From NCBI GenBank assembly GCA_013327885.1, contig JABUMY010000005.1, positions 186,001-250,000 of the forward strand: DNA of 64,000 nt, in the 5' to 3' direction. The position numbers were made by a program, and so were the translations under genes. This stretch comes from Flavisolibacter longurius (GTDB taxonomy: Bacteria > Bacteroidota > Bacteroidia > Chitinophagales > Chitinophagaceae). Positions 36,680-43,958 of this stretch are shown in pieces; within the stretch, counting starts at the first letter, position 1, and each line of letters begins with the position of its first letter. Below the pieces are notes generated by a model. The model did not search any database and was not told the origin of the DNA. It saw nothing but the letters and a program-made list of their open reading frames with translations.

Positions 36680-37819
36680 TCATAACACGCCTTTGGTCGA
36701 AGGCAGGTAATTTTTCAGCGGGTCTTTTTTTACCGCCATTTTAATGGCCTTGGCAAAGGCCTTAAAAATCGCTTCTATCTTGTGATGCTCGTTCTCCCCC
36801 CTGCACTCCACGTTAAGGTTGCATTTGGCTGCATCGGAGAAAGATTTGAAAAAGTGAAAGAACATTTCCGTAGGCATATCCCCCACTTTTTCTCTGCTGA
36901 ACGATGCATTCCAAACAATCCAGTTCCGTCCACCAAAATCAATGAGCACTTTGGCTTCCGCATCATCCATCGGCAGGGCAAACCCATACCGTTCAATGCC
37001 ACGTTTATCGCCCAGCGCTTTGGCAATGGCCTCGCCCAGGGCAATGCCGGTATCTTCAATGGTATGGTGTTCGTCGATGTGTAAATCACCCTTGGCTTCA
37101 ATGCGTAAGTCGATCAGGCCGTGACGGGCTATCTGGTCGAGCATGTGATCAAAAAAATGAAGGCCTGTCTGGATAGAAGCTTTCCCGCTGCCATCCAGGT
37201 TCAACACGATGGTAATATCCGTTTCCGACGTTTTACGGGTATGCAGCACCGTCCGGTCTTCTCTCTTCAGGAAATCATAGATCGCTTTCCAGTCGGTGGT
37301 AGCCAGCGCTACTACCTTCTCCAGCTCTTCAGCACTGTCCTTTGTTTCTGCGCCGCCGAGGTCAGGGTTATTTTTGATCCAGATCGCTTTGCAACCCAGG
37401 TTCTTGGCCAGTTGCACGTCGGTGATGCGGTCGCCAATGACGTATGAATTCGGGATATCGTATTCGCTGTTATTGAGGTAGGCCCTGAACATGCCGATAC
37501 CCGGCTTGCGGGTATCTAATCCATCTTCAGGATAGCTGCGATCGATCAGTTCTTCTTTAAAATAAATCCCTTCGCCTTTAAAGGTGTTGATCACCAAATT
37601 GTGCGCCGGGTTAAACTGTTCTTCCGTAAAGGTTGACGTTCCCAATCCATCCTGGTTCGATACCAGCACAAATTCATAATCCAGTTCCTCGTAGATCTTT
37701 CCGAGGTACTTCAGCGCACCCGGATAAAAGCTCACTTTTTCCAGCGAATCGATCTGGTACAGGGGCGGGAATTCGTTGATCATGGTTCCGTCCCTGTCGA
37801 TAAACAAACATTTCTTCAC
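36680..37819 (-). CDS. hisB: Bifunctional histidinol-phosphatase / imidazoleglycerol-phosphate dehydratase
   Basis: A 379-residue fusion catalysing two steps of histidine synthesis. Residues 1-165 are the HAD phosphatase ([11 protein letters not shown] with nucleophile Asp8, [23 protein letters not shown]). Residues about 185-379 are the dehydratase, with manganese-binding [24 protein letters not shown] and [15 protein letters not shown]. The zinc-loop cysteines of the E. coli phosphatase half are absent; the corresponding place reads [11 protein letters not shown]. The start is GTG at 37819, 6 bp after the cytochrome gene. Last his gene of the cluster seen here. Confidence 0.95.
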
Positions 37820-37825
37820 GGCAGA

Positions 37826-38266
37826 TTATTTCGTTTTTGTTCGCAATGCTTTTACTTCAGCGGGTGCAACACGGCTGGCTTTGTTGCCAAAACTGTTACG
37901 CACATACGTAATCACGTCTGCAATTTGCTGGTCGGTCAGGTGCGGCAATGGCGGCATGGCGTTGTGAAAGGTTTCGCCATCGATTTCCACCTTGCCTTTC
38001 GATCCGTTCAGCACTTGTTCGATCAGCACATTTTTGGGTCCCAGCACCCATTCGTTCTGGATTAGGGGCGGGTTCAGGTTACCGACACCGGAACCATCCA
38101 CCTGGTGGCAGGCAAGACAATACGTTCCGTAAACGGCTTTGCCGCGGTCAATCGATTGCTGCATGCTTGCGCTGGCCGCAGGCACCGGCTTTTTCTGTGC
38201 TTTTTTTGTTTGAGCTGTCGCCATGAACGGGAGCAGCAACAGGGCAACTACAACTGTTTTCATCAT
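37826..38266 (-). CDS. Periplasmic c-type cytochrome
   Basis: A 146-residue class I cytochrome c with a signal peptide (MMKTVVVALLLLPFMATAQ), heme-binding CLACH at residues 50-54 and a probable axial Met in NAMPPLPHLT near residue 103. The pattern YGTYCLACHQVDGSGVGNLN PPL is typical of cytochromes partnering PQQ or molybdenum dehydrogenases. It starts 3 bp after the stop of the sugar dehydrogenase gene, so it is very likely the electron acceptor of that enzyme. Placement within the histidine operon is unusual. Confidence 0.92.
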   Translation of the reverse strand: MMKTVVVALLLLPFMATAQTKKAQKKPVPAASASMQQSIDRGKAVYGTYCLACHQVDGSGVGNLNPPLIQNEWVLGPKNVLIEQVLNGSKGKVEIDGETFHNAMPPLPHLTDQQIADVITYVRNSFGNKASRVAPAEVKALRTKTK

Positions 38267-38269
38267 CTT

Positions 38270-39511
38270 TTATTTAGCGGCATAATTGATCTTCCACACA
38301 TTTCCTTTTACATCATCCGACACATAAAGGGAGCCATCAGGACCTTGCGCCAAACCACAGGGACGGTACACCGCCTGGCGTGGCGTGGTGATGGCCTCTG
38401 TGCCGGCAAAGCCATTGGCAAACACTTCCCATTTGCCGGAAGGTTTACCATCCTTAAATGGAACAAACGCAACAAAAAATCCCTGCTGGTTCAACGGTGC
38501 CCGGTTCCAGGAGCCGTGAAAAGCAACAAAAGCGCCGTTGCGATATTTTTCGGGAAATTGATTACCGGTATAAAACAGCAAGGCGTTTGGAGCCAGGTGA
38601 CCCGGGAAAGCAACAACCGGTGCTTTTACATTGGCACAGCGGCCAGCACTTTTGCCATCACCGCCATATTCAGGATTCAATACGTTCTTGCCTTCAAACT
38701 GGTTGTAGAAACAATAAGGCCAGCCAAAATCATCACCGGCTTTTGTTACTTCTACCATCACTTCCGCAGGCAGTTCAACAGCTACAGAATCGGGGAAGAT
38801 CTTGTAGTCCTGCAACCCATCGCGGCCATGCTGCATGGCAAACAAGGTATTGGTGGTGCTGTTCCAGTCAAGTCCTACCACATTGCGCAAACCTGTTGCA
38901 TACCGAATGCCGTTTGCGTACGACTGGTTTTGCTTATCCACCTTAAACTGCCAGATGCCGCCGGTGGTTTCCAGCAGCGGGCAAGGGTCCTGCCCCGGTT
39001 CGCCGGTAGCCCGGTCTTTTTCCTGACAGACGTTAGACGGCGCCCCGATGTTTACATAGATATTACCGGCATTGTCAAGCGCTATGGATTTGGACGCATG
39101 GGTTCGGCGGTCCACAAGCCCTGTTACAATGGTTTCGCGGCTGGCCGTATCCACCGTTGTGCCATTGAATTTGTACCGGTATACCTCACTGTTAGATGAG
39201 GCATAGAGATAACCGTTCTTGATGGCGATACCGGTACCAATGTAATTGGCAAAGCCAGTGGTATCATCAATGCGGCTATCGCCGTTTTTATCGCTTAGGC
39301 GAATGATGCCCTGGCCGTTCTTTAAGCGTTCAAGCTTTATGTAGACATCACCATTGCTGTTGACAACCAGGTGGCGTGCCCGGCCCAGGTCTTTGGCAAC
39401 TACGCTGGACCGAAAGCCGTTTGGTAAGGTGATAATGGCGTCTTTTGCCGTTTGAGCCATTGCTGCTGCAGAAAATGTGGCAGCCAGCAGGAGCGAAGTT
39501 ATTTTTTTCAT
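38270..39511 (-). CDS. PQQ-dependent sugar dehydrogenase (sorbosone dehydrogenase-like)
   Basis: A 413-residue secreted beta-propeller enzyme. After the signal peptide (MKKITSLLLAATFSAAAMAQ) blades run to the C terminus, with LPNGFRSSVVAKDLGRARHL at the start, a calcium-type DKNGDSRIDD loop, QHGRDGLQDYKIFPDS, the W/P-rich DDFGWPYCFYNQF, and YRPCGLAQGPDGSLYVSDD at the end. This fits soluble PQQ glucose/sorbosone dehydrogenase-like proteins, which oxidise aldoses in the periplasm and pass electrons to a cytochrome, here encoded next. The start at 39511 is set by the signal peptide; in-frame codons upstream overlap hisC. No PQQ synthesis genes are seen. Confidence 0.88.
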   Translation of the reverse strand: MKKITSLLLAATFSAAAMAQTAKDAIITLPNGFRSSVVAKDLGRARHLVVNSNGDVYIKLERLKNGQGIIRLSDKNGDSRIDDTTGFANYIGTGIAIKNGYLYASSNSEVYRYKFNGTTVDTASRETIVTGLVDRRTHASKSIALDNAGNIYVNIGAPSNVCQEKDRATGEPGQDPCPLLETTGGIWQFKVDKQNQSYANGIRYATGLRNVVGLDWNSTTNTLFAMQHGRDGLQDYKIFPDSVAVELPAEVMVEVTKAGDDFGWPYCFYNQFEGKNVLNPEYGGDGKSAGRCANVKAPVVAFPGHLAPNALLFYTGNQFPEKYRNGAFVAFHGSWNRAPLNQQGFFVAFVPFKDGKPSGKWEVFANGFAGTEAITTPRQAVYRPCGLAQGPDGSLYVSDDVKGNVWKINYAAK

Positions 39512-39546
39512 GTGTTTGCTTGTGATTGAAGGAAGGCTAAAATACG

Positions 39547-40602
39547 TTAGTCCTGTTGATAATTCCGGAGCGCCTCCAGCAAAACGGCATTTTCCCTTTC
39601 GGTGCCGACGGTAATGCGCAGGCAGCCTTCGCAAAGGATCACGTTGTTGCGGTTGCGAACGATTATTCCTTTGTCGCGGAGATAGGCATAGATCGCATTG
39701 GCGTCGGTTACTTTCACCAGCAGGAAGTTGGCATCGGAAGGATACACTTTCTGTACGCATGGCGTGATCAGCAAATCGCTCACCAGTGCCTCCCTTAGCT
39801 TTACTGTTTCGGTGATCATGGCATTTACATCCTGCAGGTTGTCCAACGCTTTCAACACCAGTTCCTGTGTTGCCTGGTTGATGTTATACGGAGGCTTGAT
39901 CTTGTTGAGTACAGCCACTATTTCTTTCGACGCATAGATCATTCCCAGGCGCAGGGCTGCTAGCCCCCAGGCTTTGGAAAAGGTTTGCATAACCACCAGG
40001 TTCGGATAGTCGCTCAAGGCTGTAACAAAGGATTTATGCCGGCTGTAATTGATGTAGGCTTCATCCACCACCACAATGCCGTCGAAGTTGTTCAGCACCA
40101 TTTCGATGTCATCCCGGTCAAGGCTGTTGCCGGTAGGATTGTTGGGCGAGCAGAAGAAAATAATTTTTGTGTTGGCATCGATGGCTTCTTCTAATCCTTC
40201 CAGGTCCAGTTGGTAAGTTGGTGTCAGCGGCACCATTTTCACCGGTACATCGTTAATGTCGGCATACACTTCATACATGCCGTACGTGGGTGGACAGACC
40301 ACAATATTATCCCGTTGCGGATCGCAAAAGGCGCGGATCAGGAGGTCTATGCATTCATCGCTGCCGTTGCCCAGGAGCATGTGTTCAGCCGCTACATTTT
40401 TGATGAGCGCTAATTTTTTCTTTACTTCCCACTGCAGGGGATCGGGATAACGGTTATACCACTTCGTTAGTGGCGACCCAAAGCTGTTTTCGTTGGCATC
40501 AAGGTAAACGCTGGCGCTGCCGCTAAATTCGCTGCGGGCAGAGGAATAAGGCTTGAGGCTTTTAATGTTTTGCCGGATAAGGCTATTTAAATCAAAACTC
40601 AT
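39547..40602 (-). CDS. hisC: Histidinol-phosphate aminotransferase
   Basis: A 351-residue class II aminotransferase of fold type I that converts imidazole-acetol phosphate to histidinol phosphate. Visible: LDANENSFGSP near residue 33, GNGSDECIDLLIRAF near 78, the cofactor Asp/Tyr in VVVDEAYINYS near 175, and the PLP lysine in QTFSKAWGLAALRLG near 210, with the C-terminal LCEGCLRITVGTEREN. It follows hisD by about 100 bp across a strong hairpin. Confidence 0.96.
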   Translation of the reverse strand: MSFDLNSLIRQNIKSLKPYSSARSEFSGSASVYLDANENSFGSPLTKWYNRYPDPLQWEVKKKLALIKNVAAEHMLLGNGSDECIDLLIRAFCDPQRDNIVVCPPTYGMYEVYADINDVPVKMVPLTPTYQLDLEGLEEAIDANTKIIFFCSPNNPTGNSLDRDDIEMVLNNFDGIVVVDEAYINYSRHKSFVTALSDYPNLVVMQTFSKAWGLAALRLGMIYASKEIVAVLNKIKPPYNINQATQELVLKALDNLQDVNAMITETVKLREALVSDLLITPCVQKVYPSDANFLLVKVTDANAIYAYLRDKGIIVRNRNNVILCEGCLRITVGTERENAVLLEALRNYQQD

Positions 40603-40655
40603 TTTTTCTCTTTTTGAATTACGGCTTGACTGTTTTTACAGTTGGAAAGGTTTTC

Positions 40656-40704
40656 TGGCTGGCAGTTATTCCATATCTGCGAGATATGGAATAACTGCCG
40701 GCTA
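40656..40704 (-). repeat. Strong intercistronic hairpin between hisD and hisC
   Basis: A perfect 18-bp stem, GGCAGTTATTCCATATCT (40661-40678) with its complement at 40682-40699, and a 3-nt loop. G-T tolerant pairs extend it to about 23 bp. It starts at the hisD stop codon on the minus strand. No T tract follows, so it is more likely an RNA stability or processing element than a terminator. Confidence 0.8.
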
Positions 40705-41979
40705 ATGCTGCATGCGGATGCGAACGGCCTGCGCATGCGCTTCCAGACCCTCTGCTTCTGCCATGGCTACAACAGTGGCAGCAATGTTTTGCAGGCCTTC
40801 GGCCGAAAGCTTTTGGTAGGTGATCTTTTTCACAAAGCTGTCGAGGCTTACACCACTATAGGCTTTGGCAAAACCATTGGTAGGCAAGGTGTGGTTGGTG
40901 CCGCTGGCATAATCACCAACACTTTCGGGTGAATAGTTGCCAATAAAAACAGAACCGGCATTGGTGATTTGTTCCGCAATCTTATCAGCATCTTCACAAC
41001 TAAGAATAAGGTGTTCCGCGGCATATTCATTCACCAGTGCAATGGCCTCTTCCCAATTCTGTATTATCACAGCTTTGCTGTTGGCGAGGGCTTTTTCTGC
41101 CATCTCTTTCCGCGGCAGCAATGCCAGTTGTTTTGCCAGCTCTTCCTGTACGTTTTTGACAACGCCTTCGTCATTGCTTACCAGCAACACCTGGCTGTCG
41201 GCGCCATGCTCGGCTTGCGACAAAAGATCGGCTGCTACAAAAGCAGCGTTGGCAGTGGCATCGGCCATCACGCAAACTTCACTGGGACCGGCGGGCATGT
41301 CAATGGCAATGCCCTGCATTTGCACCAATTGCTTGGCAGCAGTTACGTACTGGTTGCCGGGACCAAAAATTTTATACACAGCTGTAACCGTTTCCGTGCC
41401 GTAGGCCATGGCGGCAATGGCTTGTGCCCCACCAATGCGAAAAACTTTTGTAATGCCCGTGAGAGATGCCGCATACAAAATAGCGGGATGCAGCTTTCCT
41501 TCTTTATCCGACGGCGAGCAAAGGATGATCTCTTTGCAGCCAGCCAGCTTTGCCGGCACGGCCAGCATAAGAACCGTTGAAAAAAGCGGCGCGGTTCCGC
41601 CCGGAATGTAAAGACCCACTTTTTCGATGCCTACGCTTTTGCGCCAGCATTGAATACCCGGCACCGTTTCAATCACTTCCACTTTTCCGGCCTGTGCCCG
41701 GTGAAAGGTTTCAATGTTTTGTTTGGCTTGTTGAATGGCCGTTTTCAACTCGTTAGAAAGCTCATTGGCGGCACCGCTGATCTCTTCACCGGAAACCTGC
41801 AAAGCATCAAGCACCACGTTACCAAATCGCTGTGTAAAATCCCGAACAGCGCTATCACCTTTTTCTTTCACGTCTGCTAAAATTTCGTGTACGGTTTGCA
41901 ACACGGCGGTATTATCGGCATACGGCCGTTGCAAAAGCGCTTTCCAATCTTTCCTGCCAGGATTGACGATTACTTGCAT
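40702..41979 (-). CDS. hisD: Histidinol dehydrogenase
   Basis: A 425-residue zinc enzyme that oxidises L-histidinol to histidine in two NAD-dependent steps. Seen: VGLYIPGGTAPLFSTVLMLA near residue 125, GGAQAIAAMAYGTETV, the signature DMPAGPSEVCVMAD near 235, active-site region EHGADSQVLLVS and ADKIAEQITNAGSVFIGNYS, and near the C terminus GTNHTLPTNGFAKAYSGVS with its conserved His. Length is normal. Confidence 0.97.
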   Translation of the reverse strand: MQVIVNPGRKDWKALLQRPYADNTAVLQTVHEILADVKEKGDSAVRDFTQRFGNVVLDALQVSGEEISGAANELSNELKTAIQQAKQNIETFHRAQAGKVEVIETVPGIQCWRKSVGIEKVGLYIPGGTAPLFSTVLMLAVPAKLAGCKEIILCSPSDKEGKLHPAILYAASLTGITKVFRIGGAQAIAAMAYGTETVTAVYKIFGPGNQYVTAAKQLVQMQGIAIDMPAGPSEVCVMADATANAAFVAADLLSQAEHGADSQVLLVSNDEGVVKNVQEELAKQLALLPRKEMAEKALANSKAVIIQNWEEAIALVNEYAAEHLILSCEDADKIAEQITNAGSVFIGNYSPESVGDYASGTNHTLPTNGFAKAYSGVSLDSFVKKITYQKLSAEGLQNIAATVVAMAEAEGLEAHAQAVRIRMQH

Positions 41980-42048: not shown

Positions 42049-42903
42049 TTAAACAATCATCTTCTCAATCGGTACCACCAATATGCCTTGTGCACCGGCT
42101 TTGCGTAAGGCTTCTATCTTTTCCCAAAATTCATCTTCGGGTAAAACACTGTGTACGGAGCTCCAGTCGCTGTCGGCAAGCGGCAATACTGTTGGACTTT
42201 TCATACCCGGCAGCAACCTGATGATCTCCTGCAGCGAACTGTTAGGTGCATTCAGCAACACATACTTGTTGTTTTGTGCTTTGTGCACGGCGCGGATGCG
42301 AAAGATGATCTGGTCGAGAATGTCCTGCTGCTCGCTGTTCAGGCTTTTGTTTCGCACCAACACGGCCTGGCTTTTTAAAATGGTTTGTGCTTCCTGCAAG
42401 CCGTTCATAAAAAGCGTAGAGCCACTGCTCACAAGATCGCAAACCGCATCTGCCAAACCAATCCCCGGTGCCAGTTCTACCGACCCGCTGATCTCGTGGA
42501 TCTCGGCGCTGATGCCGTTGTCATCCAAAAACCGCTGCGTTAGCACAGGGTAGCTGGTAGCGATCTTTTTGCCCTGCAGAAACTGGGGCGAGGTGTAGGT
42601 TTCGGTTTTGTTTACCGCAATGGAAAGCCGGCATTTGCCAAAGCCCAGGTACTCTACGATCTCGGCTTCTTTTTCTTTTTCAAACAAAACATTTTCGCCT
42701 ACAATGCCGATATGCGCTACGCCGTCCTCAACGTATTGCGGAATGTCATCATCACGCAGAAAATACACTTCAAGCGGAAAATTTTCGGCAAGGGCCCGCA
42801 ACTGGTTACTGCCGCTTTTTACAGCGATTCCGCAAAGGTTCAGCAGCTTCATGCTGTCTTCGTGCAGCCTGCCGGATTTTTGAATGGCTAATTTCAGGTT
42901 CAT
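42049..42903 (-). CDS. hisG: ATP phosphoribosyltransferase, long form
   Basis: A 284-residue enzyme catalysing the first committed step of histidine synthesis (ATP plus PRPP). The N-terminal catalytic part has LKLAIQKSGRLHEDSMKLL, DGVAHIGIVGEN and the PRPP loop ELAPGIGLADAVCDLVSSGST near residue 153. Residues about 215-284 form the extra ACT-like regulatory domain (SSLQEIIRLLPGMKSPTVLP, AQGILVVPIEKMI) that marks the long, histidine-inhibited form independent of HisZ. Its ATG lies 2 nt after the T tract of an attenuator, see separate entries. Confidence 0.97.
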   Translation of the reverse strand: MNLKLAIQKSGRLHEDSMKLLNLCGIAVKSGSNQLRALAENFPLEVYFLRDDDIPQYVEDGVAHIGIVGENVLFEKEKEAEIVEYLGFGKCRLSIAVNKTETYTSPQFLQGKKIATSYPVLTQRFLDDNGISAEIHEISGSVELAPGIGLADAVCDLVSSGSTLFMNGLQEAQTILKSQAVLVRNKSLNSEQQDILDQIIFRIRAVHKAQNNKYVLLNAPNSSLQEIIRLLPGMKSPTVLPLADSDWSSVHSVLPEDEFWEKIEALRKAGAQGILVVPIEKMIV

Positions 42904-42905
42904 AC

Positions 42906-42940
42906 AAAAAAAATAAAGGCCTACCGATGGGTAAGCCTTT
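42906..42940 (-). terminator. his attenuator terminator hairpin
   Basis: On the minus strand AAAGGCTTACC (42940-42930) pairs with GGTAGGCCTTT (42925-42915) with one mismatch around a 4-nt loop, followed by A and then eight T residues (42913-42906). Only GT separates the T tract from the hisG ATG. A terminator placed between promoter and first gene is the mark of transcription attenuation. Confidence 0.9.
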
Positions 42941-42974
42941 GTTTATAAGATGACATATAACATCACAGCTTACC
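42930..42974 (-). promoter_or_regulatory. his antiterminator pairing segments
   Basis: GGTAAGC (42974-42968), which overlaps the leader peptide's TAA stop codon, is exactly complementary to GCTTACC (42936-42930), the first arm of the terminator; a G-U pair extends it to 8 bp. A ribosome stalled at the His codons (43002-42988) would leave 42974-42968 free to pair and block the terminator, while one that reaches the stop codon would cover it. An additional pairing of the His-codon run (CATCAT) with GTGATG (42966-42961) could act when translation does not start. Inferred from complementarity. Confidence 0.75.
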
Positions 42975-43017
42975 TGTTCGGCAGTGCATGATGATGGATA
43001 TGTACGTTTTTATTCAT
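42970..43017 (-). CDS. hisL: Histidine operon leader peptide
   Basis: A 15-residue leader ORF encoding MNKNVHIHHHALPNR, with His at positions 6, 8, 9 and 10, all CAT codons. It begins 7 nt downstream of a consensus -7 element, so the transcript is nearly leaderless, and ends in TAA 30 nt before the terminator hairpin. Four His codons in five positions upstream of hisG, plus the pairing segments, make it an attenuation sensor for charged histidine tRNA. The peptide itself probably has no function. No ribosome-binding site is visible, as usual in this phylum. Confidence 0.88.
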   Translation of the reverse strand: MNKNVHIHHHALPNR

Positions 43018-43024
43018 TGCGTCG

Positions 43025-43056
43025 CAAAAATAAGTGAGGGATTTGTAGTGAGCAAA
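43025..43056 (-). promoter_or_regulatory. Consensus Bacteroidota promoter of the his operon
   Basis: On the minus strand TTTG (43056-43053) is followed by 20 nt and TATTTTTG (43032-43025), a full match to the TTTG/TAnnTTTG promoter. Transcription is predicted to begin at about 43018-43022, just before the leader peptide ATG. Confidence 0.85.
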
Positions 43057-43133
43057 AAGAATTTCAAATAGAATAATATTTCGCATCACACTCCCCTTTT
43101 TGACATTCTTCCACCGCTATCCTATTTTCGGTG

Positions 43134-43958
43134 ATGCGAAAACTTTTACTGACCCCGTTTTTCCTGCTTGCGGCCTTTACCGGTTTTGCAGCTATTGTAG
43201 ACACGGTTTCCATTTTCAGCCAGAGCATGGGCAGGGCCCGCAATTGCGTGGTGATAACCCCGGGAACAACGAAAAAAACAGCCAAACAATTTCCAACTGT
43301 TTACCTCCTGCATGGCTTTAGCGGCAGCTACAGCAACTGGGTGCGCCGGGTACCGCAACTGACCAATTATGCCGACGAATATGGCGTGGTAATCGTTTGC
43401 CCAGACGGGGAATTCAGCAGTTGGTATTTCGACAGCCCGGTGGACAGCACCATGCGTTACGAAACCTATATTGCCAAAGAAGTTCCGCAATTCATTGAGG
43501 CCAATTACCCAGTGGTGAAGGATCGCAGGGCCAGGGCCATTACAGGGCTGAGCATGGGTGGTCATGGCGGCTTGTTCCTGGGCTTCCGGCATGCAGACTT
43601 TTTCGGCGCCTGCGGCAGCATGAGTGGTGCATTTGCAATCGAATACATTACCCGTGGTTATGATGTGGAAAAAAGACTGGGTGATACAACGAACAAAGAA
43701 CGCTACCGCGACCACTCCATCCTTAAACAAATGGAGCAATATCCAAAAGACAGCATCGCCGTTATTTTTGATTGTGGCACCGAAGACCAACTCATCCGGG
43801 CCAACCGTGTTGCCCACCAGAAAATGCTGGAATTAAAGATCCCGCATGAATACACGGAGCGGCCGGGTCGCCACGACTGGGATTACTGGCGAACGGCCGT
43901 GCAATTTCAACTGCTTTTTTTCCGCAACTATTTTAACCGGAGCTTTGGAGCTGATTAA
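43134..43958 (+). CDS. Exported esterase, alpha/beta hydrolase (esterase D/antigen 85-like)
   Basis: A 274-residue serine esterase with a signal peptide (MRKLLLTPFFLLAAFTGFAA). The alpha/beta hydrolase fold shows the oxyanion strand VYLLHGFSGS near residue 61, the nucleophile elbow GLSMGGHGG near 140, an Asp in IFDCGTEDQLI near 220 and the catalytic His in RPGRHDWDYW near 250. The family includes S-formylglutathione hydrolases and carbohydrate feruloyl/acetyl esterases; the signal peptide favours an extracytoplasmic ester. ATG 43134 is preferred over the GTG one codon upstream. It is divergent from the his leader. Confidence 0.88.
   Translation: MRKLLLTPFFLLAAFTGFAAIVDTVSIFSQSMGRARNCVVITPGTTKKTAKQFPTVYLLHGFSGSYSNWVRRVPQLTNYADEYGVVIVCPDGEFSSWYFDSPVDSTMRYETYIAKEVPQFIEANYPVVKDRRARAITGLSMGGHGGLFLGFRHADFFGACGSMSGAFAIEYITRGYDVEKRLGDTTNKERYRDHSILKQMEQYPKDSIAVIFDCGTEDQLIRANRVAHQKMLELKIPHEYTERPGRHDWDYWRTAVQFQLLFFRNYFNRSFGAD

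Follow-up and report, generated by a model that had tools for sequence, protein, structure and literature searches.

Attenuation of his operons by a translating ribosome is a textbook mechanism, and the question raised by the present locus is whether the short region in front of hisG, in a member of the Bacteroidota, contains such a device. The initial annotation, made on the window (the whole 64-kb stretch of DNA that was analysed), had pointed to a promoter, a His-rich leader ORF, an intrinsic terminator and a strand able to compete with that terminator. We compared the region with related loci, folded it with the ribosome placed at various positions and searched it for known RNA families. 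The outcome makes it very probable that the leader governs transcription of the hisGDC...B operon by ribosome-mediated attenuation.

The hisG leader and its operon

The elements of the locus are collected in Table 1. Base for base the original observation proved correct, at a level far beyond chance: the promoter-like string TTTG-N20-TATTTTTG, the 15-codon His leader ORF MNKNVHIHHHALPNR and the GGTAAGC across the leader stop codon, complementary to the first arm of the terminator, are all present. The terminator stem counts 11 bp, including one G-U pair (42940-42915). Folding, with shuffled sequences as reference, yielded three mutually exclusive hairpins of similar strength: i) the 1:2 hairpin (-15.2 kcal/mol; z only -1.64 when taken alone); ii) the antiterminator hairpin 2:3 (-14.0 kcal/mol; z -2.95); and iii) the terminator 3:4 (-15.9 kcal/mol; z -4.71).

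Table 1. Features of the hisG leader and of the genes behind it (positions within the window).
Feature	Coordinates	Strand	Details
Predicted Bacteroidota promoter	43025..43056	-	TTTG 43056-43053, N20, TATTTTTG 43032-43025; read from sequence
Predicted transcription start, predicted 5' leader of 3 nt	~43020	-	from promoter-box position
Leader ORF MNKNVHIHHHALPNR, 15 codons	42970..43017	-	ATG 43017, stop TAA 42972-42970, His block 43002-42988
1:2 protector (anti-antiterminator) hairpin	42952..43005	-	His and next codons pair with stop-codon segment and linker
Segment 2, GGTAAGC, antiterminator strand across leader stop codon	42968..42974	-	
Segment 3 core, GCTTACC, common to antiterminator and terminator	42930..42936	-	
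Intrinsic terminator	42906..42940	-	arms AAAGGCTTACC 42940-42930 and GGTAGGCCTTT 42925-42915; loop CATC; T8 42913-42906
hisG, first gene of likely regulated operon	42049..42903	-	TIGR00070 189.5 bits, cut-off 75.75
Rest of likely operon	36680..41979	-	hisD 41979-40702, hisC 40602-39547, GSDH-like protein, cytochrome c, bifunctional hisB 37819-36680

The identities of hisG, hisD, hisC and the bifunctional hisB are supported by NCBIfam profiles, and the shared strand and close spacing suggest that hisG to hisB are co-transcribed. hisC and hisB are separated by two codirectional genes (37826-39520), which encode a glucose/sorbosone dehydrogenase-like protein and a small cytochrome c; such an insertion is odd for a his operon. 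The gene upstream of the leader (43131-43958) is divergent, so that the hisG transcript should start in the intergenic gap; the terminator cannot serve that neighbour and was thus rejected as the end of an upstream operon. A phage origin was likewise dismissed, as no similar DNA was found in a phage collection.

Conservation in the family and pairing of the segments

The upstream regions of hisG were compared within the family (Chitinophagaceae) and beyond it, as the initial annotation had proposed, and the His run, the antiterminator and the terminator turned out to be conserved in the family, while in other families the elements recur with different sequence. The family set was derived from 143 hisG matches in 195 genomes; three partial matches (G033, G193 and G025) and two cut by contig ends (L070 and L088) were left out, which gave 138 usable loci. 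A detector that requires an intrinsic terminator behind a short ORF in which 7 residues include 3 or more His recovered the combination upstream of hisG in 127/138 of these loci, versus 0/414 dinucleotide shuffles of the same upstream sequences and 2/750 windows taken from the 64-kb stretch, one of which is the hisG locus itself. The loci are related rather than independent, and the statistics given here ignore kinship. The count may be a lower bound, because the scan reached 330 nt and two of the 11 misses have a CAT run farther out, L028 at -395 and L055 at -318. The His block and segment 2 are 12-13 nt apart in 74/127 loci; in 36/127 the called stop codon falls outside segment 2.

Pairing was inspected column by column in an alignment of 74 of the 100 non-redundant leaders, namely those whose segment 2 spans the stop codon, a selection that favours the canonical form. 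The antiterminator (segments 2 and 3) was paired in 96.7% of 579 cells, as compared to 22-50% in controls slid by 1-3 columns. Double changes occurred in two antiterminator pairs, a number reached by 329/500 shuffles, and the covariation score was reached by only 6/500; the modest covariation within the family follows from segments that are nearly invariant there. The terminator changed on both sides in 6/10 alignment pairs. When each segment was matched to its own partner and to partners swapped between family loci, own partners fitted better for the terminator arms (p=7e-22) and for the antiterminator (p=1.3e-4).

In other clades the antiterminator sequence shifts and the complementarity is mostly kept. 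Among the best 80 of 589 confirmed hisG loci from named organisms, a set that overlaps with the family set, 60 are of the terminator type: 43 carry a GCTTACC-type arm, nine a CCCGTCTGA-type arm (found in the Flavobacterium and Winogradskyella loci) and eight another arm. Segments 2 and 3 changed together in a type-specific manner (p=1.1e-8 for the GCTTACC type and p=3.9e-3 for the CCCGTCTGA type), and for the eight loci with unusual arms own and swapped partners gave no signal (p=0.64). For joint change of the two antiterminator segments, these clades are more informative than the family alignment.

The leader had been described as having only one antiterminator helix, a description that overlooked the 1:2 protector hairpin. 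Since RNAalifold on the full alignment recovered the terminator only, this hairpin was evaluated by own-versus-swapped pairing and by folding without segment 3. The outer helix gave p=3.6e-9 and the inner helix p=7e-4 (the mean values of the latter are distorted by one locus without a usable segment 1), as compared to p=0.78 for a negative control in which His codons were matched to the terminator arm; covariation of the inner pairs by column counts was not above that of shuffles. Folded without segment 3, the region was more stable than its shuffles (mean z -2.65 over 127 loci), and the optimal folds had at least five His-region bases paired to the linker in 125/127 loci and at least four segment 2 bases paired upstream, also in 125/127. 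A TTACC-like string, resembling segment 1, occurs between the His run and segment 2 in 91/127 loci, where 37.8 were expected by shuffling; it is spread over all three reading frames (46, 21 and 24 of the 91 loci), and part of the leader thus seems to be selected as RNA. With this hairpin the leader is no reduced form of the classical design: judged from the sequences, its layout is the classical 1:2 / 2:3 / 3:4 logic, contained in ~115 nt on a transcript predicted to be almost leaderless.

That prediction rests on the promoter. In 121/127 leaders, versus 7/254 control windows, a TAnnTT[TC]G box is present no more than 70 nt from the leader ATG, and in 89/121 the distance is 4-11 nt. In Flavobacterium psychrophilum the TAnnTTTG box occupies positions -12 to -5 (PMC9723704), which translates to a predicted 5' leader of 0-7 nt in these 89/121 cases; going by the consensus it would be exactly 0 nt in 20/121. 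In agreement with the initial annotation, an SD-like motif preceded 0/127 leader ATGs. Predicted 5' leaders below 10 nt in 89/121 box-bearing leaders are unusual for the phylum, given that such short leaders are reported for ~3.7% in B. thetaiotaomicron (PMC7366714) and leaderless mRNAs for 5.5% in F. psychrophilum (PMC9723704). The predicted start thereby makes transcription-translation coupling and SD-independent initiation accessible in this phylum to a simple reporter experiment.

Position of the ribosome and alternative readings

We infer the start site, the translation of the leader, the stalling of the ribosome and the dependence on histidine, and propose the following sequence of events. 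Transcription would start ~3 nt ahead of the leader ATG, which would allow a ribosome to load at the 5' end without a Shine-Dalgarno sequence. When His-tRNA is scarce, the ribosome would stall in the His run and cover segment 1, leaving GGTAAGC (segment 2) free to pair with GCTTACC (segment 3); the terminator would then be blocked and hisG transcribed. When histidine is plentiful, the ribosome would reach the stop codon and cover segment 2, upon which segment 3 would pair with segment 4 and form the terminator just before hisG. An untranslated leader would tend to fold upon itself through 1:2, which would also favour termination.

To compute the dependence on ribosome position, we folded the transcript as far as segment 3 and barred the bases under the ribosome from pairing. 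Counted from the first base of the A-site codon, the footprint was assumed to reach 17 nt upstream and 13 nt downstream, a size that derives from E. coli data. For an A site occupied by a His codon, the expected 2:3 pairs averaged 7.29 over the 127 loci; the mean was 0.32 when the stop codon occupied it and 2.40 without ribosome. At the present locus the values were 7.8-7.95, 0.0 and 2.8, respectively. With this assumed footprint the computed difference between the His and stop positions was at least three pairs in 118/127 loci, and the masked folding thereby reproduced the claim that the spacing lets a ribosome stalled at His free segment 2 and one at the stop codon cover it. The state without ribosome is mixed: 48/127 loci retain at least two expected 2:3 pairs, and the optimal structure of the present locus, when folded as far as segment 3, has the 2:3 pairing. 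The expected behaviour in all three states together was seen in 69/127 loci.

Other functions can be imagined for the same elements. The hairpin could act mainly on translation by hiding the ribosome landing site of hisG, in which case the leader would control initiation instead of, or besides, termination. Indeed, 2 nt separate the end of the T8 tract from the hisG ATG (42903), as had been noted, and in the same-genus locus L002 it abuts the ATG. This abutment is nevertheless not general: the terminator starts 75 nt upstream in L003, also of the genus, and over the family loci the distance between the end of the terminator arm and the HisG match has a median of 43 nt (range 9-190), with the arms and the T tract still kept. 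We therefore regard a role mainly in translation as unlikely. The least probable of the readings considered here is a plain intrinsic terminator that senses nothing and either stops transcription coming from an upstream gene or acts as a fixed brake; the terminator is strong on its own, as this reading asks, but the upstream neighbour is divergent, and a conserved His ORF, an antiterminator and the 1:2 hairpin accompany it.

It could also be that the His-rich string is not translated at all and belongs to a conserved RNA that is switched by a bound protein, tRNA or small molecule. The spread of the segment 1-like strings over three frames is in line with such partial selection as RNA, yet the His blocks look like coding sequence: their CAN codons over the 127 loci are CAT (512), CAC (93), CAG (1) and CAA (0), and the third base is thus T or C in 605/606, as coding would predict, a bias that is inflated by the choice of loci for His content. 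The Rfam scans moreover revealed no T-box or riboswitch. This renders an untranslated switch very improbable, and attenuation by a translating ribosome remains our preferred reading.

Known systems and related leaders in the Bacteroidota

The comparison with Rfam His_leader that the initial annotation had suggested yielded no match. Across the 64-kb window there was no match to His_leader (RF00514), Bacteroid-trp (RF01692), a T-box or a riboswitch, and these known elements were ruled out on that ground for the leader. In a closer scan of 351 bases of the leader at E <= 10, RF00514 was not listed and the best entry was Phe_leader (22.7 bits, cut-off 55); a scan of 12 leader loci (10 his, one ilvD and one asd) returned a tRNA match only. 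The likeness to the enterobacterial his attenuator is in the logic: a leader peptide with a His run, located upstream of hisG, in which the position of the ribosome selects antiterminator or terminator. The enterobacterial version has a longer hairpin series; the present leader has three hairpins, a predicted near-leaderless start and no Shine-Dalgarno sequence. Bacteroid-trp RNA, which we take to be a Trp attenuator, differs in that it was missing both from the matches listed for the genus's trpE leaders and from those in the window. It is similar in being a cis-regulatory candidate of the Bacteroidetes with, by its name, a link to trp (PMC2864571).

Closest to the present case is a structured 5' element upstream of hisG, reported in 2021 to be conserved in F. 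psychrophilum and other Flavobacteriaceae without Rfam hit, in a paper whose authors find strong hints that amino-acid operons are attenuated through leader peptides (PMC9723704). Phylum, gene and the missing Rfam hit are shared with our leader; the section on hisG in that paper gives neither a sequence nor a His peptide, and the Flavobacterium loci in our set are of the CCCGTCTGA type. In Firmicutes, his operons are described with His-rich peptides and terminator/antiterminator structures, also without RF00514 match (PMC9413887), a likeness by description in another phylum. Leader peptides are transcribed leaderless in Streptomyces lividans (PMC8079986), and a three-hairpin model of terminator, antiterminator and anti-antiterminator exists for C. 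glutamicum ilvBNC (PMC11857589); as described, these actinobacterial leaders are alike in leaderless start or three-hairpin logic and differ in phylum and amino acid. A 2010 paper states that, apart from its own Firmicutes case, demonstrated leader-peptide systems were confined to Proteobacteria and Actinobacteria (PMC2965389). Our searches of the open-licence PMC literature yielded no description of the Chitinophagaceae element, and Lopatovskaya 2010 (10.1134/S0026893310010164), known to us as a citation in PMC4833913, may already predict His leaders in Bacteroidota. For the Bacteroidota, a major phylum in which RNA regulation is little studied, the analysis adds a well-supported family of His attenuators that is unmatched by Rfam and is ready for a covariance model.

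A covariance model of the leader matched 39/296 phylum genomes at E <= 0.01, a count that includes the own genome and the family and that was obtained with strict filters, by which weak matches are lost. Outside the own genome and the loci already studied, 22 of the 30 loci from this search were read (12 further matches had no locus), and 19/22 had a His leader before hisG, the gene being recognized by eye from its protein start. Of the remainder, one had an Ile/Thr/Val-rich leader before ilvD and two (L160 and L162) were discarded as His leaders, having neither. A weak match in the own genome (L172, E 0.62) was without leader and looks like chance. The ilvD case (L159, genome G245) belongs to another Bacteroidota family: the leader MITHTTITVIINVIGTKYRPGK and a terminator precede an ilvD-like gene, and from its sequence it is probably an Ile/Val/Thr attenuator.

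Among the same best 80 of 589 named hisG loci, the 20 without a detected terminator included 12 with a second kind of His leader (L201, L207, L218, L222, L223, L227, L229, L236, L237, L242, L247 and L250). The peptide ends in HHSS or a similar His-rich end; directly behind the His codons comes a short hairpin, often ATTCCTC-TAA-GAGGAAT, whose loop contains the stop codon. The rule was written after examples had been seen; it selected 0/200 shuffles and also 5/60 of the terminator-type loci. The second kind includes Pontibacter (Cytophagales) as well as Algoriphagus, Roseivirga and Marivirga, which we also assign to the Cytophagales; Fulvivirga (L202) and similar loci, presumably Cytophagales too, are of the terminator type. 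The second kind may employ Rho or a further, weak hairpin. Three Dyadobacter loci within the best 80 had no recognizable leader.

Leaders were also encountered before other amino-acid operons. The trpE leader of the own genome, MKMISNKFWWWHTNSFGVL (L295), has a similar compact layout by eye, with a WWW run, and a Trp leader with WWW and, by eye, this layout was present at 3/3 trpE loci found in five genomes of the genus (L294, L295 and L296); these stay below the Rfam Trp_leader cut-off (best 31.5 bits versus 41). Before asd (aspartate-semialdehyde dehydrogenase), 19/30 family loci have by rule an MKHTKRTKKxS-like leader followed by a terminator, versus 0/150 shuffles (L171, at G000:C11:326125-326245, and L253-L282), and further ones are visible by eye beyond the 19. 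In these 19 loci the first arm of the terminator has a possible partner in the segment before it (-10.8 to -20.9 kcal/mol), a pairing that the rule did not require. We consider the asd leader a candidate attenuator of similar layout that, if real, would sense Lys or Thr. We know of no leader-peptide precedent for asd, and a search of the open-licence PMC literature yielded no paper on attenuation by an asd leader. The reference list of PMC2864571 does contain a title on attenuator-like sequences before the asd gene of a Streptococcus. In the stretches read for ilvD and leuA of the own genome no attenuator was seen.

On balance we lean towards a phylum-wide regime in the Bacteroidota, in which almost leaderless leader peptides in one compact three-hairpin layout would sense His (hisG), Trp (trpE) and Lys/Thr (asd), part of the Cytophagales having the second kind of His leader instead. 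Finally, in one locus (L190) the leader position and GGTAGGCC/GGCTTACC are kept and the His run is, by eye, degenerate (MKNIAQLHQPYFLTPWVGR); this is perhaps a decaying or re-tuned attenuator.
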